Of a stretch of 64,000 nt of DNA, positions 3,324 through 39,803 are shown one piece after another. Positions within the stretch are counted from its first letter, which is position 1. The number at the start of each line of letters is the position of its first letter. A program made the position numbers and the translations under genes. This stretch comes from a virus. The notes under the pieces are model-generated. The model saw nothing but the letters and a program-made list of their open reading frames with translations, searched no databases and had not been told where the DNA came from. Location of the stretch: the IMG/VR virus record IMGVR_UViG_3300028392_000034, positions 1 to 64,000 of that record; one strand, 5' to 3'.

Positions 3324-4148
3324 ATGAAAAAAATCTTAACAAGTTTAATAATTGCGCTAATTGCATCATCAGCATTGGCCTGGACACAACGTGCCCCTGG
3401 CACCCTAGCACAATGTCAAGTGCATACACCATACGGTGTTCCACAAGTGCAAGGTGCTGTGCAACCAATTTGCCGTGAAGCTTATCTATCAGCCTATGAT
3501 TCTCAGGCCAAAGTTCCACGTTTTGTTATGTGGACCTTGACCCCTGGACACGCATTGGGTTGCGTAGCACGGTCAAATGCATTTGCCGCTGACCAAAGCA
3601 TCCAGGGTGGTGCAGTACCAGGTGACTACGCAGGCACAGGCTACGACAAAGGACACATGGCTCCAGACGGAGACCAAAGTTGGGATCAACAGGTTGAGTA
3701 TGAAAGTTTCTTGATGACCAACATGAGCCCACAGGCCGGCAGTTTAAATCGTGGTATTTGGAAACTGTTAGAAACATCAGTGCGTGGTTGGGCAGCTCAA
3801 ACTGGACACACATTCAACATAGTCAGTGGTGGATTATACACAGCACAAGACAAAAAGATTGGTGCTGGCGTAGTTGTTCCACATGCTTTCTACAAGATTG
3901 TCATAGACGAAAACACAGGACAATATGCAGGTTGGTTGTTTCCACACGTAGCACCATATCCTAATCTAGGCAATGACTTGACTAAATTCCGCGTACCAGT
4001 GGCACAGATTGAACAACAAGCAGGTGTTAATTATGCATTTCCTAAAGGCGCAGTAGAGCTACAACCTGGACAAGAATGGCCAGTGGACTTTGGCGCATTG
4101 ACTAATGCAAAACGCAAGTTGTGTGGCGCCAACGCCGACATCGATTAA
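3324..4148 (+). CDS. Secreted DNA/RNA non-specific endonuclease (NucA/EndoG family)
   Basis: A 274-residue protein with a clear signal peptide (MKKILTSLIIALIASSALA, cleavage before W20). The nuclease core has DKGHMAPDGD, the DRGH-type motif with Lys for Arg that carries the catalytic His, and the metal-site segment MTNMSPQAGSLNRGIW with the conserved Asn residues. Family members cleave DNA and RNA without sequence preference using one divalent metal ion. Export implies action in the periplasm or outside the cell, where it could destroy competing DNA or scavenge nucleotides; this is inference. It lies between the internal-head candidates and a radical SAM gene, with no strong Shine-Dalgarno. 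Confidence 0.9.
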   Translation: MKKILTSLIIALIASSALAWTQRAPGTLAQCQVHTPYGVPQVQGAVQPICREAYLSAYDSQAKVPRFVMWTLTPGHALGCVARSNAFAADQSIQGGAVPGDYAGTGYDKGHMAPDGDQSWDQQVEYESFLMTNMSPQAGSLNRGIWKLLETSVRGWAAQTGHTFNIVSGGLYTAQDKKIGAGVVVPHAFYKIVIDENTGQYAGWLFPHVAPYPNLGNDLTKFRVPVAQIEQQAGVNYAFPKGAVELQPGQEWPVDFGALTNAKRKLCGANADID

Positions 4149-4186
4149 AAGTTTGTTCCAGCAGTCAATCTGCTCATAATTACAGT

Positions 4187-5308
4187 ATGAGCAATTTCTT
4201 GTGTGCAGCTCCGTGGAGGGGTCTGCACATCAATCCACAAGGCAGTGTCAAAACCTGTTGTGCAGGTGATCCTAATATGTTGGGCAACTTAAACAGCCAA
4301 ACTATTGAGGAGATTCTACACGGCTCTGCACTGCAAGAAGTAAGACAAACCCTGCGTGAGGGACGCCCACATGAGCAGTATTGTCACAATTGTGTGCAGG
4401 CCGAACGCTATGGTCGTAGTGAACGTGACTGGCACAACAGAATAAATCCCGGCTTTGATGCTGGCCAAGCCTCAGATACAGAACACCATCCAGTGCTGAT
4501 TGACATACGCTGGAACACCACTTGCAATTTCAGTTGCAACTACTGCAACGAACACAGTAGTAGTCAATGGGCCAGTCTAAAACAATTGTCAGTTCAGTCC
4601 GGCACCAGACCCTATTCTGACCAAGTATGCAACTATCTCGAACAACATCAAGCACACATTAAGAAAGTGGCTCTAATTGGTGGTGAGCCGTTGTTGCTCA
4701 AAGAAAATGAACGACTACTAGATGCAATTCCTTTGGATTGTCAAGTTGACGTTATAACCAATCTTGGTGTAGACTTAGAAAGCAATCGGATATTTGCTAA
4801 GTTAGCACAACGACAACAGGTTGGGTGGAACATAAGCATTGACAATACGGGTGATAGATTTGAATATGTCAGGTATGGTGGTACATGGAGTCAAATTGAA
4901 CAAAATATCAAAATAATACAGGCCTGCTCAGGGCATAGATTAGGCATACATCCGCTTTACAACATTTACAATGCCACTAGACTATCTGAATTGATTTCTT
5001 GGGCACATGATCAAACAATACCCGTGCATTGGCAAAGCCTATATCATCCTGCTTGTTTAGATCCGCTACAACTGGGACCTGAGTTTAGGCAGTTGGCCTT
5101 AAAAGAATTACGAACAGTATTAAGTAGACCCGATTTGGATCACGGTCAACGCAACTTCCTACAAGAAACCGAAGCTCGACATCAGCTGGCCAACAACAAT
5201 ATGTTACCAGAATTTATAAATCACATTGCCGAAATTGAAAGTAAATATCATGCTGGTGCTGCAGGTCGCTTTGAACAACTGTGGCCTGAACTAGCAACTT
5301 TATTATGA
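4187..5308 (+). CDS. Radical SAM protein with N-terminal auxiliary cysteine cluster (copy 1 of 5)
   Basis: A 373-residue protein if the ATG at 4187 is used; an in-frame ATG at 4121 lies inside the nuclease gene and is unlikely. The radical SAM CxxxCxxC motif is C113-C117-C120 (CNFSCNYC), followed by a GGEP SAM-binding motif at 165-168. The N-terminus carries further Cys residues (FLCAAPW, KTCCAGD, YCHNC) arranged like a twitch/SPASM-type auxiliary Fe-S site placed before the core. The layout matches the protein at 13121-14275. Substrate unknown. Its stop overlaps the terminase start (ATGA). Confidence 0.9.
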   Translation: MSNFLCAAPWRGLHINPQGSVKTCCAGDPNMLGNLNSQTIEEILHGSALQEVRQTLREGRPHEQYCHNCVQAERYGRSERDWHNRINPGFDAGQASDTEHHPVLIDIRWNTTCNFSCNYCNEHSSSQWASLKQLSVQSGTRPYSDQVCNYLEQHQAHIKKVALIGGEPLLLKENERLLDAIPLDCQVDVITNLGVDLESNRIFAKLAQRQQVGWNISIDNTGDRFEYVRYGGTWSQIEQNIKIIQACSGHRLGIHPLYNIYNATRLSELISWAHDQTIPVHWQSLYHPACLDPLQLGPEFRQLALKELRTVLSRPDLDHGQRNFLQETEARHQLANNNMLPEFINHIAEIESKYHAGAAGRFEQLWPELATLL

Positions 5309-11066: not shown

Positions 11067-11726
11067 ATGCTATCGCATTTAGATCGCGTTTTGTTTCCAG
11101 ACCGCTGTGAGGTAATTGAAATCATACCCTCACAGCGGTATGTCTATGTTATTTTTAAAAATGGACATACTAGTTTCTTTACGCCACAAAAAAAGAACAA
11201 CTGGCCAATACGTATCAATCAACAGATTCGACGAATCAACACAATTGATGTAATCATACGAAATCCTCAAGATCGATTAATTTCAGGAATCAACACATTT
11301 ATACAACACACCGTGAGAGATAATCCTGCGCTTGATCCGGTTACAGTAGAATGGTTCGCATTGAATTACATATCGTTGAATCGCCATTATGCTTCACAGT
11401 TTGTGTGGTTATTAAATTTAGCAAGGTATTTGAATCCCAATACCACGTTGAACTTGTTGCCAATGGCGGCCATCGGAGAACTCACAGGAAGAGATTCAAA
11501 GCCCGAAGGTGTGCTTCCGGCTAACACAGAACTAATAAAACGAATCTCATCAGTGAAAAACAACAACATGTATCAGCGTATCGATGCAGTGATATTTGAT
11601 TGTATTGGACAGTCGTTGACTTGGCAACAGTTATTACAACGGATAAAAACCGCTGATCCTACAGCATACGAGTATGTGATTGAGTATGCACAACAGATTT
11701 TAAATCCAACCTATGTATTGTCCTAG
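11067..11726 (+). CDS. Sulfotransferase-family-like protein
   Basis: A 219-residue protein. The segment YVIFKNGHTSFF resembles the 5'-phosphosulfate loop (K-N-x-x-S/T-S) of sulfotransferases, VIIRNPQDRLISGIN resembles the 3'-phosphate-binding region (R-x-P-x-x-R-x-x-S), and NRHYASQFVWLL resembles the RHxxPQ segment of the family. The cofactor would be PAPS. It overlaps the next radical SAM gene by 14 bases and opens a four-gene cassette. The family call rests on motif resemblance; the acceptor substrate is unknown. Confidence 0.6.
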   Translation: MLSHLDRVLFPDRCEVIEIIPSQRYVYVIFKNGHTSFFTPQKKNNWPIRINQQIRRINTIDVIIRNPQDRLISGINTFIQHTVRDNPALDPVTVEWFALNYISLNRHYASQFVWLLNLARYLNPNTTLNLLPMAAIGELTGRDSKPEGVLPANTELIKRISSVKNNNMYQRIDAVIFDCIGQSLTWQQLLQRIKTADPTAYEYVIEYAQQILNPTYVLS

Positions 11727-12588
11727 ACTAGATCATTTTGTTCGTTTCAACAGCAACGGCACAGTTAGTCGCTGTGGACACATGGTCAACGCACCAGAAT
11801 TTGCCACGCTTGAAGCAATGGAATCCAGTGAGTGGCTGGTCAATACCAAACATTTGATGAGTAGTGGACAATGGCCTGACGAATGTATACGTTGTGAAGA
11901 AACTGAACCTGACAGCATACGAGCGTATGCAACAGAGTTAGACCATCAAACTGAACAGAAAGATTATTTACAAGTAGGTGGTGTGTTGGACAATCTGTGC
12001 AATGCCGCTTGCCAAACATGCAATCAAAATCTCAGCAGTAGAATCGGCAGCTTAGCCGGACCTGTATTTCCAATTATCAATAATACGGATCAATTCTGGC
12101 AATTGCCACAAGAACGAATTATGCATTTAGATATCAATGGCGGCGAGCCCAGTTATAGTAAAAACTATAAACGACTGTTGAAAAATTTGCCACCTAATTT
12201 AAAAACGCTCAGATTAAATACAAATTGTAGCACAGTATTAACTGAACTAGTTGATATAGCCCGCAGTGGCATCGAAGTTACAGTCACAGTAAGTTGTGAC
12301 GGCATCGGCACAGTGCATGACTTTGTGCGCTGGCCTATACCTTGGCAAGATTTTTATCGTAATTTAATGACCTATAAAACAATGCCAGTCACATTGAATT
12401 TGTGGACAACAGTCAGTGTGTTGAATGTAGATGACTTGCCCAACATTCAAAAATTTGCCTTAGAGCACAGCATTGATCACAGTTATGCTTACTTAAAAAC
12501 GCCCGTTGAGTTGAGTGTTGATAATACTGACATTCCTGCTAGAGATGCATATATAGCAAAACAAAAACAACTAAGAGGCATAGTATGA
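11713..12588 (+). CDS. Radical SAM protein (copy 2 of 5)
   Basis: A 291-residue protein, the shortest of the five. The CxxxCxxC motif is C96-C100-C103 (CNAACQTC) and GGEP is at 143-146. N-terminal cysteines C3, C21, C58 and C61 follow the auxiliary-site pattern seen in the copies at 4187 and 13121. It overlaps the sulfotransferase-like gene by 14 bases and the SDR gene by ATGA, so the cassette is probably translated as one unit. The reaction is unknown; family members use a 5'-deoxyadenosyl radical to modify peptides, sugars or other small molecules. Confidence 0.9.
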   Translation: MYCPRLDHFVRFNSNGTVSRCGHMVNAPEFATLEAMESSEWLVNTKHLMSSGQWPDECIRCEETEPDSIRAYATELDHQTEQKDYLQVGGVLDNLCNAACQTCNQNLSSRIGSLAGPVFPIINNTDQFWQLPQERIMHLDINGGEPSYSKNYKRLLKNLPPNLKTLRLNTNCSTVLTELVDIARSGIEVTVTVSCDGIGTVHDFVRWPIPWQDFYRNLMTYKTMPVTLNLWTTVSVLNVDDLPNIQKFALEHSIDHSYAYLKTPVELSVDNTDIPARDAYIAKQKQLRGIV

Positions 12589-13124
12589 AAATAGCAATCA
12601 CTGGTCACACCGCCGGCATAGGTCAAGCTCTTGCTGAAGAATATCAACTCATGGGTTATGAAATTGTAGGTCTTAGTCAACGTGACGGCAACAATATTCG
12701 CAACACCGTTAAGATTTGTGATCAAATTGAACCGTGTGATGTTTTTGTTAACAACGCACAAGCCGGATATGCACAGACCGAGTTGTTGTTTGAAATGGCA
12801 CAACGCTGGTCGGGCACCGGCAAACAGATTATTGTGATCAGCACAATGATGACTCAAGAACCTGTGTCGTCGTTGACTGGACTAGACATGGATCATTATC
12901 GTTTGCAAAAAGTTACATTAGAAGAAGCTGTGCGTCAAATACGACATCGTCGACTCAAAGTAAAGATCGTAGTAGTTCGTCCTGGTAACATTGCCACAAA
13001 CTTGGATAAAACAGTGCCACCTGCCGCCGATGTCGATAACTGGGCTAAAACCTTATTGGGTCTATTAGATATGGCCGCAAAAAACAATCTTAGAATTCCA
13101 GATATTTCTTTAGGACCGGTATGA
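12585..13124 (+). CDS. Short-chain dehydrogenase/reductase-like protein
   Basis: A 179-residue Rossmann-fold protein. The NAD(P)-binding TGxxxGIG is at residues 6-13, NNA at 56-58, and the catalytic Ser86, Tyr105 and Lys109 (YRLQK) fit the SDR triad. It is shorter than typical SDRs (about 250) and lacks part of the C-terminal substrate region, although the RPGNIATNL segment after the core is present. It is joined by ATGA overlaps to radical SAM genes on both sides, suggesting one pathway. Substrate unknown. Confidence 0.85.
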   Translation: MKIAITGHTAGIGQALAEEYQLMGYEIVGLSQRDGNNIRNTVKICDQIEPCDVFVNNAQAGYAQTELLFEMAQRWSGTGKQIIVISTMMTQEPVSSLTGLDMDHYRLQKVTLEEAVRQIRHRRLKVKIVVVRPGNIATNLDKTVPPAADVDNWAKTLLGLLDMAAKNNLRIPDISLGPV

Positions 13125-14275
13125 CCCCCAAAGATATATTAACCAACAAGAATTTTTGCCCAATGCCATGGACTGGGTTGATGTATAACGTTGATGGCAA
13201 AGTAAAAAATTGTATTCGCAGTGATTTTACAACCGGTGGTCTAGGCAATATCAAAGACAACACCATTGAAGAAATACTGTTAGGACCTGTCAATGTTACC
13301 AAACAAACTAATATAATCAATAACCAGCCGGCTGCTGGCTGTCATACTTGTTACGATTTAGAACATGGTAAAGAAGGTTTTGATATTATCAGTGATAGAA
13401 TTTTCTACATACGAGAATTCAAACAAACCCCATTGGATACTTATCGACCCAATAATTTTAATCTACAAACCATTGATGTTCGGTGGACCAATTTGTGTAA
13501 TCTTGCTTGTGTATATTGTGGCCCTGTGTTTAGTAGTCGTTGGGCAGACGAATTGGGTAAAAAAATATCACAACCAACCGAACAACAGCAACAGGATTTC
13601 AGAGACTACATTTATCAACACGCCAAGAATCTCAAACATGTATACCTAGCCGGTGGCGAACCCTTGTTGATGAAGGAAAATTTAAAACTACTTCGAGAAT
13701 TAAACCCAGACGTTAATCTTAGGATAAACACAAATCTTAGCAAGGTTGATACAGGAGTGTTTGATGCAGTATGCCAATTCAAAAATGTTCATTGGACAGT
13801 GAGTGCAGAAACCATAGAAGATGAATTTGAATACATACGATTCGGCGGTAAGTGGCAGGATTTTTTAGACAATCTAAACACAATTAGAAAACTTGACCAT
13901 AAGATAAGTTTCAACATGCTATGGTTTCTTTTAAATTATGACTCGGTATTTGGATATGTAGACTACCTTAAAGGTCTAGGATTCCATAATAATAGTTTTG
14001 TCATTGGTGCGTTACTCACTCCTGATTACCTAAATATTAGACATTTACCAGAAAATGTGTTAAACTCGTTAAAGTTAAAATTACAATCAAAGATCAACGA
14101 AAATCCAGGGTACCTACTTGAAGATAGTTATCGGAATATGTTGCATTACATTGAGCAACCAATTGAGAAGAATTTAACAAATTCATTTGAACAATTGGCA
14201 ACAATGGATCAACGGCGTGGAGTAGACAGCAGTAAAATTTTTACAGAATTATACAAACTTAAAGAAGGAAAGTAA
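13121..14275 (+). CDS. Radical SAM protein with N-terminal auxiliary cysteine cluster (copy 3 of 5)
   Basis: A 384-residue protein. The CxxxCxxC motif is C126-C130-C133 (CNLACVYC), with a GGEP motif near 178-181. Auxiliary cysteines C13, C31, C74 and C77 precede the core. The N-terminal block (FCPMPWTGL, then GNIKDNTIEEILLG) aligns with the 4187 protein (FLCAAPWRGL, then GNLNSQTIEEILHG), so these two are paralogues. It closes the cassette and is followed two bases later by uvsX. Substrate unknown. Confidence 0.9.
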   Translation: MTPKDILTNKNFCPMPWTGLMYNVDGKVKNCIRSDFTTGGLGNIKDNTIEEILLGPVNVTKQTNIINNQPAAGCHTCYDLEHGKEGFDIISDRIFYIREFKQTPLDTYRPNNFNLQTIDVRWTNLCNLACVYCGPVFSSRWADELGKKISQPTEQQQQDFRDYIYQHAKNLKHVYLAGGEPLLMKENLKLLRELNPDVNLRINTNLSKVDTGVFDAVCQFKNVHWTVSAETIEDEFEYIRFGGKWQDFLDNLNTIRKLDHKISFNMLWFLLNYDSVFGYVDYLKGLGFHNNSFVIGALLTPDYLNIRHLPENVLNSLKLKLQSKINENPGYLLEDSYRNMLHYIEQPIEKNLTNSFEQLATMDQRRGVDSSKIFTELYKLKEGK

Positions 14276-22135: not shown

Positions 22136-22581
22136 TGGATAAGCTCAGTATCAATAACGAAATGGCTGTGTTTGATCGCAAGGATCGAGAGTTTTACAAT
22201 AACCTAACACCAGAAGAACGTAAAAAGTTCAGTAACTTCTTGATGATTCGATATGGGTCAAGTGTGCAAGGCAGTCGAGATCTGCAAGAGTTTTACTTGA
22301 TATCCACAAACGAAAGACTTAACAAACAGTTTTTTAATATCAACCGGCATCCAAAACTACAATGGCTATGTGCTACAACTGTGAGTCCGGGGTTAGGCAC
22401 ACAGCGTCATCAGTGGATTGCTCCTAAGAAAAAGGAACCTGGCGCTGGTAGTATTCGTAAACAATTAGCAGAACTATATCCACATCTCAAAGACGATGAA
22501 CTAGAACTAATGGCACAAATCAATACCAAAAAAGACATTGATGAATATTTAAAAGCCTCAGGGCAAGACGCAAAGAAATGA
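22135..22581 (+). CDS. Unknown replication-region protein, possibly clamp-loader small subunit-like
   Basis: A 148-residue protein from ATG 22135; a GTG at 22129 is an alternative. It has FDRKDREFYNNLTPEERKKF, then MIRYGSSVQGS, and PKLQWLCATTVSPGLGTQRHQW. This pattern of a DRKD helix, a Met-Arg segment and an LQW segment recalls, from memory, the short gp62-like clamp-loader subunits of cyanophages. That is a weak call. The C-terminus is Lys-rich. TAATG and ATGA overlaps join it to both neighbours. Confidence 0.75.
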   Translation: MDKLSINNEMAVFDRKDREFYNNLTPEERKKFSNFLMIRYGSSVQGSRDLQEFYLISTNERLNKQFFNINRHPKLQWLCATTVSPGLGTQRHQWIAPKKKEPGAGSIRKQLAELYPHLKDDELELMAQINTKKDIDEYLKASGQDAKK

Positions 22582-23252
22582 CCTATACCTGTCAGTATTG
22601 TCGGAAAGACTTTATGAAAGAGTCCAGTCTTGCGGTGCATTCATGTGAGCCGCGACGTCGACGCATAGAAAAAGACGAAGCAGGTGTGCGTCTTGGCTTT
22701 AACGCCTACTTGAAATTTTATGAACTGACACAGGGTAGTGCCAAGCTAAAAACCTACGATGACTTTTGTGAAAGTGCCTACTATCGTGCGTTTGTAAAGT
22801 TTGGTCGCTATTGTGTAGATATCCGTGCTGTTAATCCTGCACGTTTTGTAGAATGGGTATTGAAACAAAACAAAAAGATTGACCATTGGTGCAAAGACAC
22901 AGTATACACAGAATACCTAACTGACTACTTGCGTGTGGAAAATATAAACGATGCTCTGGCTCGTGCTGTGGAGTTTGGTATTGATTGGTCAGAACAGTCG
23001 GGACACCCGGCAGAAGATTGCTTGCGTTATGGCAACACCAATGCAATGGTGTATGCAGTAACCGCAGGTCGCATAAGTCCTTGGATCATTTACAACAGTG
23101 AATCAGGACAAAAGTTCCTAGCCGAATTAGATGCCACACAAATAGCTATGGTGTGGCCTTACATTGACGCAGACTTTTGGATGAAAAAATTTAAAGACTA
23201 TCCAGCAGACCAAGAGTATGCCCGGGATATATTAGCAAAGGCAGGATGGTAG
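22578..23252 (+). CDS. Unknown protein with N-terminal C2H2 zinc finger
   Basis: A 224-residue protein. The N-terminus is a zinc-finger-like motif (CQYCRKDFMKESSLAVHSC; C-x2-C, then H-x-C). The remainder is helical, with many Tyr and Trp residues (AYLKFYELTQGSAKLKTYDDF; AMVWPYIDADFWMKKF). A DNA- or protein-binding role in the replication region is plausible but not shown. It overlaps the upstream gene by ATGA. Confidence 0.82.
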   Translation: MTYTCQYCRKDFMKESSLAVHSCEPRRRRIEKDEAGVRLGFNAYLKFYELTQGSAKLKTYDDFCESAYYRAFVKFGRYCVDIRAVNPARFVEWVLKQNKKIDHWCKDTVYTEYLTDYLRVENINDALARAVEFGIDWSEQSGHPAEDCLRYGNTNAMVYAVTAGRISPWIIYNSESGQKFLAELDATQIAMVWPYIDADFWMKKFKDYPADQEYARDILAKAGW

Positions 23253-23253
23253 C

Positions 23254-23610
23254 ATGATCAAAGCAATTCATACCAGTGGAAAGTATATACAAGTAATAGG
23301 CGGCAGTGCCAGCACCTATGTGAGTGCCCAAGCCGGGTCACAAGGAGTTGGTAACTTGCGTTTCAACACCAGTCAGCAACGATTAGAAGTGTATGATGGC
23401 ATGACTTGGTTGGAATTAAACACGCCACATGCCAGTGTAGGACTTAATGGGGCGGCTGAGGAAGCAATTGATTGGGTACAACGACAGATGGCAGAAGAAA
23501 AAAGACTTGAGGTATTGGCAAAAAAACATCCAGCGGTAGCAGATGCACTTAAAGCAGTTCAGCAAGCACAGGAACAAGTTAGAATCGTAGCCGCATTGGT
23601 GCAAGAATGA
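23254..23610 (+). CDS. Unknown protein with beta N-terminus and coiled-coil tail
   Basis: A 118-residue protein. Residues 1-55 are beta-rich, with GNLRFNTSQQRLEVYDGMTW, a repeat-like unit common in phage fibre proteins. Residues 65-118 form an Ala/Glu/Gln-rich helix likely to be a coiled coil. A small fibre, neck or chaperone component is possible. ATGA overlap with the DnaE-like gene. Confidence 0.75.
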   Translation: MIKAIHTSGKYIQVIGGSASTYVSAQAGSQGVGNLRFNTSQQRLEVYDGMTWLELNTPHASVGLNGAAEEAIDWVQRQMAEEKRLEVLAKKHPAVADALKAVQQAQEQVRIVAALVQE

Positions 23611-24167
23611 GCGCAGACATTGACATTGACTTAGCCGACAGGGATCAACTGTTAAAGTTGATTCGTGCTACTCCAGCACGTCAACTGCATCAAGGCCAGG
23701 TACGTCGACACAACAGTGGTGTATATGTTACAGATATTCCGTATGATCCAGTCAATACCTGTGCCGCTATAGATTACGAGGAGGCCGAGCAGTTGGGTTA
23801 TTTTAAAATTGATTTGTTAAACATGAGTGTGTATCAATTAATAACCGGTCCAGAACATTACCAAGCAATGTTAGCAAAAGAACCGCCTTGGTCTCGCTTA
23901 TGGACCGACGTAGAGTGGGCTCAGCAACTGGTTCACGTGGGCAACTATACAGATTTGTTACAAACAATGAGGCCAGATAGCATACCCAGGATGGCAGCAT
24001 TTATAAGTATTATTCGTCCGGGCAAAGCACATTTACAAACACGCCCGTGGGCTGAAGTTTTCGAGTCAGTGTGGGACGGTGATGCAAGTCGTGGATTTGT
24101 ATTCAAACACGCACATGCCATTGGATATGCTGCATTGGTGGCACTACATATGAACTTGCTGGTATGA
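23607..24167 (+). CDS. Miniature DnaE-like protein (DNA polymerase III alpha motifs)
   Basis: A 186-residue protein that collects, in order, motifs spread over about 500 residues of bacterial DnaE. DIDIDLADRDQLL (4-16) matches the PDFDVDF catalytic strand, HNSGVYV (35-41) the HAAGVVI-type segment, GYFKIDLLNMS (64-74) the KFDFLGL strand with the third catalytic Asp, LLQTMRPDSIPRMAAFISIIRPGK (split at 118-140) the RPD...LFRPG region, and FKHAHAIGYAAL the NKSHAAAYAL segment. The catalytic Asp residues (D4/D6/D8, D69) are present, but fingers, PHP, tau-binding and clamp domains are missing. Activity is doubtful; it may be a polymerase-derived regulator. Confidence 0.7.
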   Translation: MSADIDIDLADRDQLLKLIRATPARQLHQGQVRRHNSGVYVTDIPYDPVNTCAAIDYEEAEQLGYFKIDLLNMSVYQLITGPEHYQAMLAKEPPWSRLWTDVEWAQQLVHVGNYTDLLQTMRPDSIPRMAAFISIIRPGKAHLQTRPWAEVFESVWDGDASRGFVFKHAHAIGYAALVALHMNLLV

Positions 24168-25090
24168 TTCAGTGTCCTAATCCGTATCAAAGAATTACAC
24201 TAGTTGGTCATCCTAGTTTTGCTGGCGGCCATTTTTTGATCAATTGCCTGGGTCTAAATGATCAATCAGTTTTTCAACATGCTGAGTTGGCAAAAAAACA
24301 AATAGCCGGGCAATTTCAATATGCTAACAAACTGCAATACCTACATGAAAAATTGAAAATTGCCGGGCAGTCATCTACTTGGACTGATTTAGATCTTGGT
24401 AACATTCAATTGTTAGGAATTGAACACACTCAATTTTGCACACACTATCACGAAATTTTGGCTCGCCAAATGTTGCCAGTGGTTGAAGACATTATGAATC
24501 AAAATTTACACATGATGTTGAGCGCACATTCGCCAAATTTGATAAACGCTTTTTTAAAATTTTGGCCCAATGCCCGGGTAATTTTTTTTACCAACTATAG
24601 AAAATTTATCAACGCACGACAGCAGGCAACAGTGCAACCGCACAAGAACAAATCTGGACTACTAGACAGCGGATATTATTCCAAGGTTGGCGAATGGGTA
24701 TTTGTGCCAACGCAATCAGCTGAATTGACTGAATATTGGGACTCAGTTAAAGAACTTAACTGGCCACTGAATCCACCCACTGATCAACACAAATTGGAAC
24801 AGTTGCCAATGTTTATCCAACAACAACTAAGGTCGCAGACTCATCAATATATAGGTAAATTTTTAAATTATCAGCCGCTAATAGATGAAATATATGACAG
24901 TATGGTTCAGCAGTATCAAGACCAAGCAGGCGAACAATGTTTTATCTGGGACACAGGCAATAATTTTAAAAATAGTCAAGAGTTTTTAAAAAATATTAAA
25001 AAATGTTTAGACTGGTTGAATTTACCTGCCACCAATGATCAAGATTTGATAAATTATTTCGAACATTGGTTCCAAGTAATTCTTGATTAA
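24164..25090 (+). CDS. P-loop or sulfotransferase-like protein
   Basis: A 308-residue protein. The N-terminus ITLVGHPSFAGGHFLINCL resembles a degenerate phosphate-binding loop followed by a helix, as in sulfotransferase-type proteins, and ARVIFFTNYRKFINAR resembles the second cofactor-binding segment. The rest is helical and Gln-rich. The call is low confidence. It overlaps the DnaE-like gene by ATGA and precedes the SGNH-like gene. Confidence 0.7.
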   Translation: MIQCPNPYQRITLVGHPSFAGGHFLINCLGLNDQSVFQHAELAKKQIAGQFQYANKLQYLHEKLKIAGQSSTWTDLDLGNIQLLGIEHTQFCTHYHEILARQMLPVVEDIMNQNLHMMLSAHSPNLINAFLKFWPNARVIFFTNYRKFINARQQATVQPHKNKSGLLDSGYYSKVGEWVFVPTQSAELTEYWDSVKELNWPLNPPTDQHKLEQLPMFIQQQLRSQTHQYIGKFLNYQPLIDEIYDSMVQQYQDQAGEQCFIWDTGNNFKNSQEFLKNIKKCLDWLNLPATNDQDLINYFEHWFQVILD

Positions 25091-25102: not shown

Positions 25103-25789
25103 ATGACACTTTTATACAGTAATGGATGCAGTTTTACAGCCAACCGTGACGTGCCAAGATGGCATCGATATCCGTTTGTAATCAGCAAACATTTTGGTTG
25201 GAGGTCGGTTGACCGAGCCGTATCGGGCTCGTGCAACAGTAAAATTATTCGGTGTGCCATGCGAGACTGCATTGATCTGTTGACGCACAATGAACCAATC
25301 GTGGCGCTGATTCAGTTAACGTTCAAAGAGAGATTTGAGTATGCTGGAACCCCAGATGATTCCAACCGTTGGAAATACGGAGAGATCAACACAGGAATAG
25401 ATTTTGTTCCAGCACAAGATCAATTTGAATCTCTCAAACCCAGCGACTACGAAAACTGGCCCGACGAAGTAAAGCAGTATGGAAAACTTCATACGGTGTT
25501 ACAAAAACCCGATGCGGTTGATGCTGAATTGTTTTCTAGATTGGTAGGACTTGTTTCGTTTTTTCGAGCAAACAATATTCAATATTTGATATACGCTGGA
25601 CCAGCTGACTTTAAAAGTCATTTAAATGTCAATGATCCGTTTTATCAGTGGCTAACTGCTGATCCAAATGTATTGAACTTTTTGAATTTTGATATGCTTG
25701 CATTAACTGGCCAACAACGCCATCCGGACCGTGATGGAATGAAAGCGATAGCAGATTATTTTGTCAATCGACTCGGCGAACCAAAGTGA
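25103..25789 (+). CDS. SGNH-hydrolase-like protein
   Basis: A 228-residue protein. YSNGCSFT near residues 5-12 is the block I segment with the nucleophile Ser, and the C-terminal HPDRDGMKAIADYFVNRL matches block V with the Asp-x-x-His order reversed (H then D), as in some phage SGNH-like proteins. Such enzymes are esterases or deacetylases on glycans. Substrate unknown. The last 26 bases overlap a convergent leftward gene. Confidence 0.7.
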   Translation: MTLLYSNGCSFTANRDVPRWHRYPFVISKHFGWRSVDRAVSGSCNSKIIRCAMRDCIDLLTHNEPIVALIQLTFKERFEYAGTPDDSNRWKYGEINTGIDFVPAQDQFESLKPSDYENWPDEVKQYGKLHTVLQKPDAVDAELFSRLVGLVSFFRANNIQYLIYAGPADFKSHLNVNDPFYQWLTADPNVLNFLNFDMLALTGQQRHPDRDGMKAIADYFVNRLGEPK

Positions 25790-26141
25790 TTGATTTGCGT
25801 TTGCTTTTTTTACGACTCATTTCACTCAGACTGCAAATAGGCCCATGCAATACTTCTAGATCTTTATTGGTAAAAGTTTTAAGGTAAGGCCTAAATACGT
25901 CCCAATCACCTTTGAGGAATATGTTGATAGGGATACTACGATTACTTTCCCACCACCAAACATTGGCTAATTCTAAAAAATGACGTTTCAGATCCGCGTT
26001 TGATATAGCACCAAAGTCATAGATGGTGGTTATTGCGTCATCTTGATTTTGTATAATACCCACATATTCCGTTGAGGCATAGACACATAGGGTAATGAAT
26101 GGGTATTTTTCAGCTAATTTATTAATAAAATCGTTTGTCAT
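25764..26141 (-). CDS. Conserved unknown protein on the minus strand
   Basis: A 125-residue protein, one of only two leftward genes. It has FINKLAEKYPFITLCVYASTEY, VGIIQNQDDAITTIYDFG, NVWWWESNRSIPINIFLKGDW and a basic tail (MSRKKSKRKSITLVRRV). The WWWES segment and the tail look familiar from uncharacterised T4-like marine phage proteins. A minus-strand late-promoter core lies 9 bases before its ATG. Function unknown; the basic tail suggests nucleic-acid binding. Confidence 0.85.
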   Translation of the reverse strand: MTNDFINKLAEKYPFITLCVYASTEYVGIIQNQDDAITTIYDFGAISNADLKRHFLELANVWWWESNRSIPINIFLKGDWDVFRPYLKTFTNKDLEVLHGPICSLSEMSRKKSKRKSITLVRRVD

Positions 26142-28357: not shown

Positions 28358-29777
28358 CGTCCAACGCTTATTCTTAGAAATGATGTTGCAGGACGCAGAA
28401 AGTTATGTTCGCGTTCAAAACATTTACAACCCAGAAAACTTTGACCGCAGTCTCAGGCCAGCAGCTGAGTTTATTGCCAAACACAGTGACCAACACAAGA
28501 CACTGCCCACAACGGAACAGATCAGTGCCAGCACCGGCGTTAAACTTAACAACATTCCTGATTTAAATGAAGGACATTTTGAATGGTTCATGGATGAGTT
28601 TGAAGGCTTTACTCGCAGACAAGAATTGGAACGAGCAATTTTAAAGAGTGCAGATTTGTTGGAAAAGGGCGAGTATGACCCTGTAGAGAAATTAATCAAA
28701 GATGCGGTACAGATATCACTTACTAAAGACATGGGCACGGATTACTTCAGTGATCCTAGTGCTCGTATTAACCGATACTTCAACTCAGGCGGGCAAGTAA
28801 GCACTGGCTGGCCACAGATGGACAAAATCTTGTATGGTGGATTTAGTCGCGGAGAACTAAATATTTTTGCTGGTGGATCTGGATCTGGTAAAAGTTTGGT
28901 CATGATGAACATAGCCCTGAGTTGGTTACAAGCCGGACTCAGTGGTGTGTATATCAGTTTAGAACTGAGCGAAGAATTGTGTGCATTAAGAACTGATGCC
29001 ATGCTGGCTGGAATGAGCACAAAAGAAATTCGCAAAGATATTGACCAGGCAACTCTTAAAGTCAAATTGATTTCAAAGAAAACCGGTCAATATCGTATTA
29101 AGGCATTGCCAGCACAAAGCAACATCAATGACATTCGTAGTTACATCAAAGAAGTTCAAGTGCAAACAGGAATCAAGATTGACTTTGTCATGTGTGATTA
29201 CTTGGACTTGTTAATGCCAGTCAGTGCCAAGGTCAGTCCAAACGATTTGTTTGTCAAAGACAAGTATGTTTCAGAAGAATTGCGTAACTTGGCCAAAGAA
29301 CTCAATGTGTTGTTTGTAACAGCATCGCAGTTGAATCGTAGTGCAGTGGAAGAGATTGAATTTGACCACAGTCACATTTCGGGTGGTATTTCAAAGATCA
29401 ATACTGCAGATAACGTGTTTGGTATCTTTACAAGTCGTGCTATGCGTGAACGTGGCAAGTATCAAATACAATGTATGAAATCGCGTAGTAGTACCGGTGT
29501 TGGTATGAAAATTGACTTGGATTATAACATTGAAACTATGCGTATCACTGATCCGGGCGAAGATGCAGGACCGGTTAATTCGTTTGCTAAAGGTAATCTA
29601 TTAGATAGTATCAAAGCCAAGAGCCAAGTCAAGTCTGCTGACTCCGGTAACGAAAGCACATCACCAAAGTGGGAACGTCCCACAGGAACTCCAGCTTGGG
29701 AACAAGAACCCAAGATAACTGCTGATGTGCAAAGTGCCAAACTAAAACAATTACTAGGACAGATTAAACAGTCATGA
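28335..29777 (+). CDS. 41: Replicative DNA helicase (T4 gp41-like, DnaB family)
   Basis: A 480-residue helicase starting with TTG and overlapping the primase gene. An N-terminal helical domain is followed by the RecA-like motor: Walker A FAGGSGSGKS near residues 176-185, DYLDLLMP as Walker B, and a TASQLNRSAV segment typical of DnaB. T4 gp41 is similar in length (475). It unwinds the fork 5' to 3' on the lagging strand. Its stop overlaps the next radical SAM gene (ATGA). Confidence 0.95.
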   Translation: MLKDYGLDVQRLFLEMMLQDAESYVRVQNIYNPENFDRSLRPAAEFIAKHSDQHKTLPTTEQISASTGVKLNNIPDLNEGHFEWFMDEFEGFTRRQELERAILKSADLLEKGEYDPVEKLIKDAVQISLTKDMGTDYFSDPSARINRYFNSGGQVSTGWPQMDKILYGGFSRGELNIFAGGSGSGKSLVMMNIALSWLQAGLSGVYISLELSEELCALRTDAMLAGMSTKEIRKDIDQATLKVKLISKKTGQYRIKALPAQSNINDIRSYIKEVQVQTGIKIDFVMCDYLDLLMPVSAKVSPNDLFVKDKYVSEELRNLAKELNVLFVTASQLNRSAVEEIEFDHSHISGGISKINTADNVFGIFTSRAMRERGKYQIQCMKSRSSTGVGMKIDLDYNIETMRITDPGEDAGPVNSFAKGNLLDSIKAKSQVKSADSGNESTSPKWERPTGTPAWEQEPKITADVQSAKLKQLLGQIKQS

Positions 29778-30778
29778 TAGCCTATCAAGATATACAAGAT
29801 GTTCATCTTGAAATTTCTAGTTTATGTAATGCTAGTTGCCCGTTGTGTCCTAGGACGTTTTGGGGATATTCGTTCAACGCTGGATACCCAGAAACTAACT
29901 TAACATTAACACACGCTAAACAAATCTTTACTGAAGATTTTTTAACACAGTTGACCAGTATTCGAATCAATGGTAATTTTGGGGATATTGTAATGAATCC
30001 CGAAGGACCTGATATTGTTGAATATTTTATTAGTATTAATCCCAATTTAAAAATTACTATCAGCACCAATGGCGGAGCAAGAGATCAAACGTTCTGGACC
30101 AGGCTGGCAAAAAGCAGAGTCACAGTTTATTTTTGTTTAGACGGATTAGAAGATACCCATCACCTGTATAGGCAAAATACAGTATGGGCCACAGTTATAC
30201 GTAATGCACAAACATTTATAGCCGCCGGTGGTGATGCCATTTGGAAAATGATACCATTTGATCATAATCGTCACCAAATTGAGCAGTGCCGCGCACTTAG
30301 TAAAGAGCTTGGCTTTACACAATTTTTACTATCACCTGATAGTGGGCGTGACACCGGCCCGGTTTTTAATAATCACGGTGAACTCACACATGTAATAGGC
30401 AATTATACCGGAGAGAAAGATTTTGAAATATTATACCACGAGAAAAAAGCATATAAAATTCTACTAGAAGATATTCTTCCTGGGCGTATTCCTGCAAAAT
30501 CTTTAAATTGTGAGACTAAAAGACTAAAGAGTATCTACATTGCTGCTAACGGAGATGTAAGTCCTTGTTGTTATCTTGGGTTTTATCCAAAAACATATGG
30601 CGCTCATCGGTTTCATGAAGCCGCTAATGCTCAATTAATTCCATTGATTGCAAAAAATAATGCGTTAGAATACCCATTAGAAGAATGTATTGAGTGGTTT
30701 AAATCTGTCAAAAACGCCTGGGAAATTGATAATTATGAACAAGGGCGATTAGTAATTTGCGATGAGTCATGTGGATAA
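29774..30778 (+). CDS. Radical SAM protein with C-terminal SPASM-like region (copy 4 of 5)
   Basis: A 334-residue protein. The CxxxCxxC motif is C18-C22-C25 (CNASCPLC), at the very N-terminus. The C-terminal cysteines (NCETKRLKSIYIAANGDVSPCC split by 16 residues, CIEW, ICDESCG) form a SPASM/twitch-type auxiliary site. The order therefore differs from the copies at 4187, 11713 and 13121, which carry theirs first. SPASM proteins commonly modify peptides. It is joined by ATGA overlap to the helicase gene. Substrate unknown. Confidence 0.9.
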   Translation: MIAYQDIQDVHLEISSLCNASCPLCPRTFWGYSFNAGYPETNLTLTHAKQIFTEDFLTQLTSIRINGNFGDIVMNPEGPDIVEYFISINPNLKITISTNGGARDQTFWTRLAKSRVTVYFCLDGLEDTHHLYRQNTVWATVIRNAQTFIAAGGDAIWKMIPFDHNRHQIEQCRALSKELGFTQFLLSPDSGRDTGPVFNNHGELTHVIGNYTGEKDFEILYHEKKAYKILLEDILPGRIPAKSLNCETKRLKSIYIAANGDVSPCCYLGFYPKTYGAHRFHEAANAQLIPLIAKNNALEYPLEECIEWFKSVKNAWEIDNYEQGRLVICDESCG

Positions 30779-38109: not shown

Positions 38110-38132
38110 CATCATCTGATTATTAGATGATG
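38110..38132 (+). promoter_or_regulatory. Hairpin covering the first two ATGs of a radical SAM gene
   Basis: CATCATCT (38110-38117) pairs perfectly with AGATGATG (38125-38132) around a 7-base loop. The 3' arm contains the ATGs at 38127 and 38130, leaving the ATG at 38142 free. It could control initiation. No T run follows, so it is not a terminator. Confidence 0.55.
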
Positions 38133-39044
38133 CACTATACTATGAAAAAACACTTATTCTCCAAACTCGAGTTCTATATAACCAACGTTTGTAATTTGAC
38201 CTGCGAAGGTTGTAATCGATTCAACAACTACTCATTTGCTGGTTGGCAACGATGGAGTGACTACGAAGCCGACTATGCCAAATGGGCCGAACATGTAGAT
38301 GTTGATCGGATTGTAATACTAGGTGGAGAACCCCTGCTTAATCCAGATATACTTGATTGGGTATATGGAATCAATCGTATCTTTAAGAGAAATGTGCAGA
38401 TTTTGTCAAACGGCACACGTCTAAACAATGTAAAAGGACTTTACGAAGCACTACAGGCCAATGGCAACTGGATGGGTATCAGCTGGCACAATCCCAACAC
38501 CATTGATGAGTTTGAAACAGAGGTTTACAAGTTCCTTAAAGGTAATATTACAAAAATAGAAAAAAATGATCCTCGCAACGAATATGGTGCCGACGTAGCA
38601 TGGGTAGATGAAAATAAAGTTGTTATTCCTTTGTGGATACAATATGATTTTTATGACAGTGCAATTGGTCGTGATGCTACTGGTCGATTTACACTACACA
38701 ATAGTAGACCCGAAGTAGCACACAACAGTTGTGGATTTAGGCGCCATAAAAATTATCATATGATCAAAGGTAAACTGTATAAATGTGGCCCAGCTGCATT
38801 ATTTCCAGAGTTTGATCAACAACACGGATTTGATATTTCGGACGCGGATCGAGCCGTATTAAATTCTTACCGGCCATTATCTCCTTATGAGTATGCAGAA
38901 CGCGGACAAGAGTTTTTGGACACGATTGATGAGCAATTGACCATGTGTAAATTCTGCCCAGAAAGTCTGGACTATAAAAATAGATTATTTGCAGTTACCA
39001 AAAATCAAGCTCGAAAACAATACACCCTAGAACCAGTCGTATAA
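38127..39044 (+). CDS. Radical SAM protein (copy 5 of 5), beside IscU/IscA
   Basis: A 305-residue protein; the start may be 38127 or the in-frame ATG 38142. The CxxxCxxC motif is C22-C26-C29 (CNLTCEGC) counted from 38127, and GGEP is at about 66-69. C-terminal cysteines (NSCGFRRH, KCGPAA, CKFCPE) form a SPASM-like auxiliary site. It directly precedes the Fe-S assembly genes iscU and iscA, 62 bases upstream. A late promoter and a start-covering hairpin precede it. Substrate unknown. Confidence 0.9.
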   Translation: MMHYTMKKHLFSKLEFYITNVCNLTCEGCNRFNNYSFAGWQRWSDYEADYAKWAEHVDVDRIVILGGEPLLNPDILDWVYGINRIFKRNVQILSNGTRLNNVKGLYEALQANGNWMGISWHNPNTIDEFETEVYKFLKGNITKIEKNDPRNEYGADVAWVDENKVVIPLWIQYDFYDSAIGRDATGRFTLHNSRPEVAHNSCGFRRHKNYHMIKGKLYKCGPAALFPEFDQQHGFDISDADRAVLNSYRPLSPYEYAERGQEFLDTIDEQLTMCKFCPESLDYKNRLFAVTKNQARKQYTLEPVV

Positions 39045-39105: not shown

Positions 39106-39483
39106 ATGGCATATTCAGAAAAAGTAATTGATCACTACGAAAATCCACGTAATGTAGGGTCGTTTGACAAAAGTGACGACTCGATTGGAACCGGTATGGT
39201 TGGAGCTCCTGCATGTGGCGACGTCATGAAACTTCAAATCAAAGTAAATACTGAAGGAGTAATAACTGATGCCAAATTTAAAACGTACGGGTGCGGATCA
39301 GCAATCGCCAGCTCAAGTCTTGTCACCGAGTGGGTTAAAGGAAAAACGCTTGACCAAGCAGGAACGATTAAAAATTCGGATATTGCTGGAGAACTTGCCT
39401 TACCACCGGTTAAAATACATTGTAGCATACTTGCAGAAGATGCTATAAAAGCCGCAATCGAAGACTACCGTAAAAAACACTGA
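39106..39483 (+). CDS. iscU: IscU-type Fe-S cluster scaffold
   Basis: A 125-residue protein, full length for the IscU/NifU-N family. The three ligand cysteines are C37 (ACGD), C63 (GCGSA) and C106 (HCS), with Asp39 next to the first. The HscA-recognition motif LPPVK is intact at 99-103. It builds [2Fe-2S] clusters from cysteine-desulfurase sulfur and passes them on with HscA/HscB. No desulfurase gene was seen, so host IscS would be required. Its stop overlaps the iscA start. Confidence 0.93.
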   Translation: MAYSEKVIDHYENPRNVGSFDKSDDSIGTGMVGAPACGDVMKLQIKVNTEGVITDAKFKTYGCGSAIASSSLVTEWVKGKTLDQAGTIKNSDIAGELALPPVKIHCSILAEDAIKAAIEDYRKKH

Positions 39484-39803
39484 TGATTTCAGTTACTGAC
39501 GTCGCCTCTAAAAAAATTGTATCTAACTTGACTCGACGTGGCCAAGGGGTAGGTATTCGACTTGGTGTTCGTACCACTGGTTGCTCAGGGCTTGCTTATG
39601 TATTAGAATATGTTGATACCATTAATGCAGAAGACATTGCAGTTGAACAAGATGGCTTTGTTGTAGTGATTGATCCTAAGAGTTCAGCATACTTAAATGG
39701 AGTCGAAGTAGACTATGTGCGCCAGGGTCTTAACGAAGGCTTTGAATTTAACAATCCTCTTGAACGAGACCGTTGTGGATGTGGAGAAAGTTTTAGGATT
39801 TGA
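39483..39803 (+). CDS. iscA: IscA/A-type Fe-S carrier
   Basis: A 106-residue protein. The ligand cysteines are C34, C98 and C100 (CGCGESF), with a GCSG motif at 33-36. A-type carriers receive clusters from IscU and deliver [4Fe-4S] clusters to targets such as radical SAM enzymes. It shares a one-base overlap (TGATG) with iscU and a TTGA overlap with the dCMP deaminase, forming a three-gene operon. Confidence 0.93.
   Translation: MISVTDVASKKIVSNLTRRGQGVGIRLGVRTTGCSGLAYVLEYVDTINAEDIAVEQDGFVVVIDPKSSAYLNGVEVDYVRQGLNEGFEFNNPLERDRCGCGESFRI

Follow-up and report, generated by a model that had tools for sequence, protein, structure and literature searches.

Gene B and its DnaE motifs

We analysed a stretch of 64,000 nucleotides, here called the window, that makes up positions 1 to 64,000 of the 149-kb IMG/VR virus record IMGVR_UViG_3300028392_000034. 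An open reading frame (ORF) at 23607-24167 (+), here named B, encodes a 186-residue protein related to bacterial DnaE, the polymerase III α (Pol III α) of E. coli. It starts with an ATG that overlaps the stop of the preceding gene by 4 nt (ATGA), has its own stop within the coordinates and gives the N-terminus MSADIDIDL. The gene and its motifs are as follows.

23607..24167 (+): B, 186 aa, PHROG_11778, by homology, profile and model likely to form the C-terminal half of a minimal palm of the DnaE type that is split in two
23616..23630 (+): DIDID strand, D4/D6/D8 equivalent to E. coli DnaE D401/D403/D405, invariant in 130/130 non-redundant sequences with the region present
23709..23723 (+): HxxGV (H35, G38), equivalent to E. 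coli H511AGGV, H and G in 148/148
23805..23813 (+): K67-x-D69, equivalent to E. coli K553-F-D555 with the third catalytic Asp, K and D in 148/148
24012..24026 (+): I136-R137-P138-G-K140, equivalent to E. coli RPG639-641 at the start of the fingers, I, R, P and K in 148/148
24102..24131 (+): F-K-x-x-H-x-x-x-Y-A helix, F166-A175, equivalent to E. coli F756NKSHSAAYA765, F, K, H and Y in 148/148

B belongs to PHROG_11778 ('DNA polymerase'; E 4.6e-51 over 184 residues), while searches of Pfam, NCBIfam and the PDB with its single sequence gave nothing useful. The profile of the B family was aligned by hhalign with a DnaE alignment of E. coli and eight phage sequences at a probability of 94.8%, an E-value of 5e-8 and a score of 61.8. 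Because single-template E-values are not calibrated on a database, shuffled copies served as controls: 40 column shuffles scored at most 22.7, and the reversed profile scored 18.3.

AlphaFold2 models were made of single chains. That of B has a mean pLDDT of 92 and a pTM of 0.84, and its Foldseek matches 1-12 in the PDB are all Pol III α (probability 0.75-1.00, TM-score 0.36-0.53, best E 1.7e-3), the probability falling to 0.01 at the thirteenth. These matches persuade by their consistency, the same enzyme filling the top twelve, and not by their strength, the E-values being modest. B is homologous to DnaE. A preliminary description of the window, made from its letters alone, had proposed the DnaE motifs in the DnaE order at this place and had named a profile search and a structural model as checks; the motif mapping, the family assignment and both checks agree with it, and neither of the two outcomes that it had named as refuting was obtained.

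The catalytic Asp residues are kept as that description held, D4/D6/D8 standing for D401/D403/D405 and D69 for D555; D401 and D403 of DnaE are metal ligands according to established biochemistry. Its (N)K-x-H-x-x-x-YA segment stood in part. The F-K-x-x-H-x-x-x-Y-A pattern is present, with F166..H170...Y174-A175 corresponding to E. coli F756NKSH760SAAY764A, but the E. coli 'NK' is not literally there: B of the window reads F-K-H-A-H, and most relatives F-K-K-[AS]-H.

The motifs are drawn together. The HxxGV element follows the thumb in E. coli DnaE, 111 residues from DxD, whereas in B it lies only 32 residues from it. From E. coli to B, the successive motif spacings change from 111 to 32, from 42 to 32, from 86 to 70 and from 117 to 29.

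A probable partner gene for the other half of the palm

When the window's own record was searched with PF07733, a second place was found at G000:C1:121249-121467, within a gene, here named A, at G000:C1:120949-121470 (+). It lies outside the window, about 97 kb from B, and encodes 173 aa from its ATG. The PF07733 match of A (E 5e-5) is just below the family cut-off, and that to phrog_11127 ('DNA polymerase') has an E-value of 4.8e-36. By hhalign, the A profile aligns with about residues 309-392 of E. coli DnaE (E 3.5e-12), and against the PDB it matches DnaE only. The model of A has a pLDDT of 86, and its top 12 Foldseek matches are DNA polymerase entries, nearly all titled Pol III α.

GRGS, the element that binds nucleotides, is found in A. 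The C-terminus of A reads ...GVGRGSSVASYVLYKLGVHRIDSLFYNLDCREFLR, ending with EFLR where E. coli DnaE reads FLN, and the distance from GRGS to FLN is 30 residues in both. B starts 3 residues before the first Asp of its DxD strand (E. coli D401/D403), so that about 4 loop residues are lost between the chains. Taken together, the end of A and the start of B place the chain break at one and the same DnaE loop, which in E. coli joins FLN to P400. No fused A-B protein occurs among the 172 B and 108 A ORFs.

E. coli DnaE is one chain of 1160 aa with all its domains, whereas A and B are two chains of 359 aa in all that hold the palm and part of the fingers. They resemble it in the order and identity of GRGS, DxD, HxxGV, KxD, RPG and FxKSHxxxYA and in the Pol β-like palm. 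A keeps GRGS, and B keeps the equivalents of D401/D403/D405, H511-x-x-G, K553-x-D555, R639-P and F756..H760...Y764. With domain names assigned from the established DnaE structure and absence judged by length and alignment, the losses are the PHP domain, a segment of about 79 residues from DxD to HxxGV where DnaE has its thumb, about 88 residues of the fingers between RPG and FNKSH, and all beyond about residue 776 of E. coli DnaE, including the clamp-, OB- and tau-binding regions.

The C-family palm with GRGS, DxD and KxD in order is found only in A and B together. The one-chain build of C-family enzymes, in which the thumb, the full fingers, the PHP domain and the clamp-, OB- and tau-binding regions are all joined, is not found. 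The preliminary description had most of the enzyme removed. This is right for the thumb, much of the fingers and the C-terminal regions, but the N-terminal half of the palm is present as the separate gene A.

Among the non-redundant sequences, 93 of A and 148 of B, no active-site position varies wherever the region is present. The scan patterns included DIDID and FKxxH of B and GRGS of A, whose invariance is in part a product of that selection. HxxG, KxD, RPxK, Y76 and W95 were outside those patterns.

Distribution, selection and co-occurrence

Relatives of B are found at at least 590 loci in IMG/VR. Among cultured phages, 90 records encode a relative at 35-42% identity, and in 89 the alignment covers at least 80% of the length. 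These cultured phages are almost all jumbo phages (PA5oct group, RaK2, GAP32, 121Q, Atu_ph07, Phosso, XaC1, Vibrio 2.275.O). B is under purifying selection, the median dN/dS being 0.07 over 24 unsaturated pairs, a rough value as synonymous sites are saturated in most pairs. The GAP32 homologue (L087:13275-13925) has been noted as having one transmembrane domain and is a 'putative membrane protein' in another record of it. This is probably a misannotation of the conserved FKxxHxxxYA fingers helix, modelled at 168-185 in B of the window.

Outside viral records, the genome scan for B gave six matches (L286-L291), all on contigs of metagenome-assembled genomes labelled archaeal or bacterial. A cellular origin of B was rejected, since these are most simply phage contigs binned with their hosts. 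One of the six genomes (G028) fits this, having A, B and the family-B polymerase PolB all on one contig, C57, which seems to come from a jumbo phage and to have been binned with a bacterium.

We searched 28 records for the A and B families. A, B and PolB are all present in 12/12 IMG/VR single virus records above 230 kb (G002, G006, G007, G010, G014, G015, G018-G022 and G027) and in 6/6 cultured jumbo phages tested. Most of the shorter records have just one of A and B, as expected of fragments. In all tested genomes that are sufficiently complete, B occurs with A, and it is therefore not the stand-alone mimic or remnant that the preliminary description had considered.

In phage Paride (L083, OR805295.1, about 88.9-92.7 kb), the PolB matches are split over separate open frames of 825 and 379 aa. 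The pattern agrees with the split, intein-bearing PolB of the related phage MIJ3 (PMC6892783).

Gene neighbourhoods of A and B

Two neighbours of B in the window recur in its relatives.

22578..23252 (+): upstream neighbour, 224 aa, phrog_11058 (function unknown), at 141/146 loci with room
25764..26141 (-): convergent neighbour, 125 aa, phrog_11637 (function unknown), at 134/134 loci with room, each time on the strand opposite to B

The conserved order is uvsW, phrog_11279 (166 aa), phrog_11758 (150 aa), phrog_11058, B, phrog_11637, a structural gene, primase and gp41 helicase, with UvsW at 42/42 and primase at 39/39 of the loci with room. The phrog_11637 gene, which has no Pfam match, directly follows B in relatives, and two inserted genes intervene in the window. 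No replication gene is linked to B more tightly, and it could act as a partner or regulator.

Near A, the conserved genes are one of 167 aa (97/104), one that is GroES-like (51/52 with room) and one for a gp44-like clamp loader (45/52). The T4-type replication context of uvsX, uvsY, uvsW, gp61/gp41 and gp44 is represented by the block around B in relatives, the gp44-like gene near A and the primase of the window, where UvsX and gp41 were named by eye.

Discussion

For the group 2.2 jumbo phages, Iyer et al. (2021, PMC7824862) predicted a phage-specific minimal Pol III α that is split between the products of two distant genes and occurs together with a family-B enzyme. In that description, the N-terminal protein is NTP-binding and the C-terminal one Mg2+- and template-binding, the split enzyme may cooperate in one-strand synthesis or repair, and the phage versions are proposed to resemble ancestral Pol III (PMC7824862). 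B fits the C-terminal protein, having the Mg2+-binding Asp and the template-binding part without other DnaE domains, and A fits the N-terminal NTP-binding protein in a distant gene of the same genome. The phage group also agrees, T4-like jumbo phages including Atu_ph07, and the accompanying family-B polymerase is present in 18/18 relatives that are complete or exceed 230 kb. We find no difference in kind; the member in the window is from an uncultivated phage, with B 42% identical to that of the PA5oct group.

The remark in the preliminary description that no well-described protein resembles B is therefore wrong at the level of prediction, as Iyer et al. (PMC7824862) had set out the pair and PHROGs and RefSeq already label the B family 'DNA polymerase'. 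Our search of the literature, in open-licence papers only, found no laboratory or biochemical study of the split polymerase. Added here are the break position, the sizes of the thumb and finger losses, the family-wide conservation, the co-occurrence and synteny counts and the structure models.

Other phage C-family polymerases are built differently. Full-length phage DnaE (for example of Pbunavirus phiKT28 and Streptomyces phage Aaronocolus; phrog_405) are likewise phage-encoded but have about 1030-1160 aa. Another division of DnaE is seen in Mycobacterium phage Leopard and Microbacterium phage Pharpay (L297, L299), with two nearby genes annotated as DnaE-like, the larger of which (about 765 aa) holds the whole palm-to-fingers region.

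We consider it likely that T4-superfamily jumbo phages have a minimal C-family (DnaE/Pol III α-type) polymerase core encoded by two genes, with B as its C-terminal half, and that this core is probably of low processivity and works beside the family-B replicase. The analysis establishes the homology, the conserved motifs, the place of the break, the pairing of A with B, the synteny and the purifying selection. We infer the complex of A and B, its catalysis and its biological role; most likely, they assemble into a Mg2+-dependent nucleotidyltransferase or short-patch polymerase beside that replicase. The two chains would dock across the FLN/PDIDID loop and rebuild one Pol β-like palm with an active site spanning the interface. 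A would supply the GRGS that holds the dNTP phosphates, and B the metal-binding Asp triad for two metals, the K-x-D strand and the two fingers motifs. With the thumb and the clamp site absent, low processivity is to be expected, and such a distributive enzyme may serve gap filling, repair or recombination-coupled synthesis and not be the main replicase.

Several points weigh against this proposal. These phages already possess a family-B polymerase. A and B are tens to hundreds of kb apart, and their co-expression is assumed. The parts of the thumb and fingers with which DnaE holds DNA and dNTP in position are missing, so templated polymerase activity is not assured. The structural matches are marginal, with best Foldseek E-values of 1.7e-3 for B and 6e-2 for A and TM-scores of 0.35-0.53. 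In the window's own 149-kb record there is no PF00136 (PolB) match; a 130-kb record from the same sample (G012), with an A identical to that of the window, has PolB.

The main rival is that A and B make up a nucleotidyltransferase that no longer copies a template but adds nucleotides to the ends of DNA, RNA or protein through a thumbless Pol β-like palm. The thumb segment (111 to 32) and 88 residues of the fingers (117 to 29) are lost, yet the metal- and NTP-binding residues are invariant. However, the fingers motifs RP-x-K and FKxxHxxxYA, common to the template-dependent DnaE, are invariant too, and both genes sit in replication blocks with uvsW, primase, helicase and clamp loader, so we hold this unlikely, though to be taken seriously. 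Improbable to a further degree is a non-catalytic regulator: B, alone or together with A, would imitate the DnaE core to bind or poison the host Pol III, clamp or tau, or would scaffold the phage replisome. Its size, its homology to the host enzyme and the presence of a separate phage replicase would suit such a role, but mimicry needs none of the catalytic Asp, Lys and GRGS that are invariant over a broad family, and what is missing from DnaE is precisely its regions of host contact (clamp, tau and PHP/epsilon sites).

Two further explanations were rejected. That B is far shorter than DnaE might suggest a degrading remnant of a captured host dnaE. This is next to inconceivable given the dN/dS of about 0.07, the invariant active site, the fixed synteny, the breadth of the family, with about 600 relatives in viral databases and 90 records of cultured phages that align along nearly the full length, and the equally conserved complementary half A. 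DnaE is a classic host gene of split inteins. Phages of this group also carry PolB inteins (PMC6892783), and A and B might be exteins joined by protein trans-splicing. But the C-terminus of A and the N-terminus of B both lie only a few residues from the homology boundary, and the longest of the 108 A and 172 B ORFs has 216 aa, which leaves no room for intein halves, so that these lengths and boundaries make trans-splicing hardly credible.

Within the proposed two-gene core, the products of two unlinked genes may make up the active site in trans, with no trans-splicing. Having shed the thumb and much of the fingers, the enzyme would carry out a reaction other than ordinary templated extension, such as end-tailing or the repair of DNA at recombination intermediates, and would do so in almost all jumbo T4-like phages of the group. 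We put this forward as a possibility, a rather doubtful one. A and B are a pair of core genes, strictly conserved in a group of large phages that is very common, and have gone under the names 'DNA polymerase' or 'hypothetical protein'. If they reconstitute activity, we would know of no smaller C-family polymerase core, and this one would be made of two independent chains. One could then test which part of DnaE is enough for catalysis and whether the phage versions are like an ancestral Pol III.

Other genes of the window

The phrog_11058 protein upstream of B opens with a CxxC...H zinc-finger-like motif. The two inserted genes downstream, 24164-25087 (+) and 25103-25786 (+), are rare elsewhere (2/144 and 10/131 loci) and have no family matches; by eye they are sulfotransferase-like and SGNH-hydrolase-like.

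By their cysteine motifs, read by eye, at least five proteins of the window are radical-SAM-like (4121-5308, 11713-12588, 13121-14275, 29774-30778 and 38127-39044). Further such genes lie on the rest of the record, for example at G000:C1:76536-77780 and 125213-126121, and their number is unusually high for a phage. At 39106-39803 (+), adjoining genes appear by eye to encode an Fe-S scaffold (IscU/NifU-like) and an IscA-like protein, a pair perhaps linked to the many radical-SAM-like genes.
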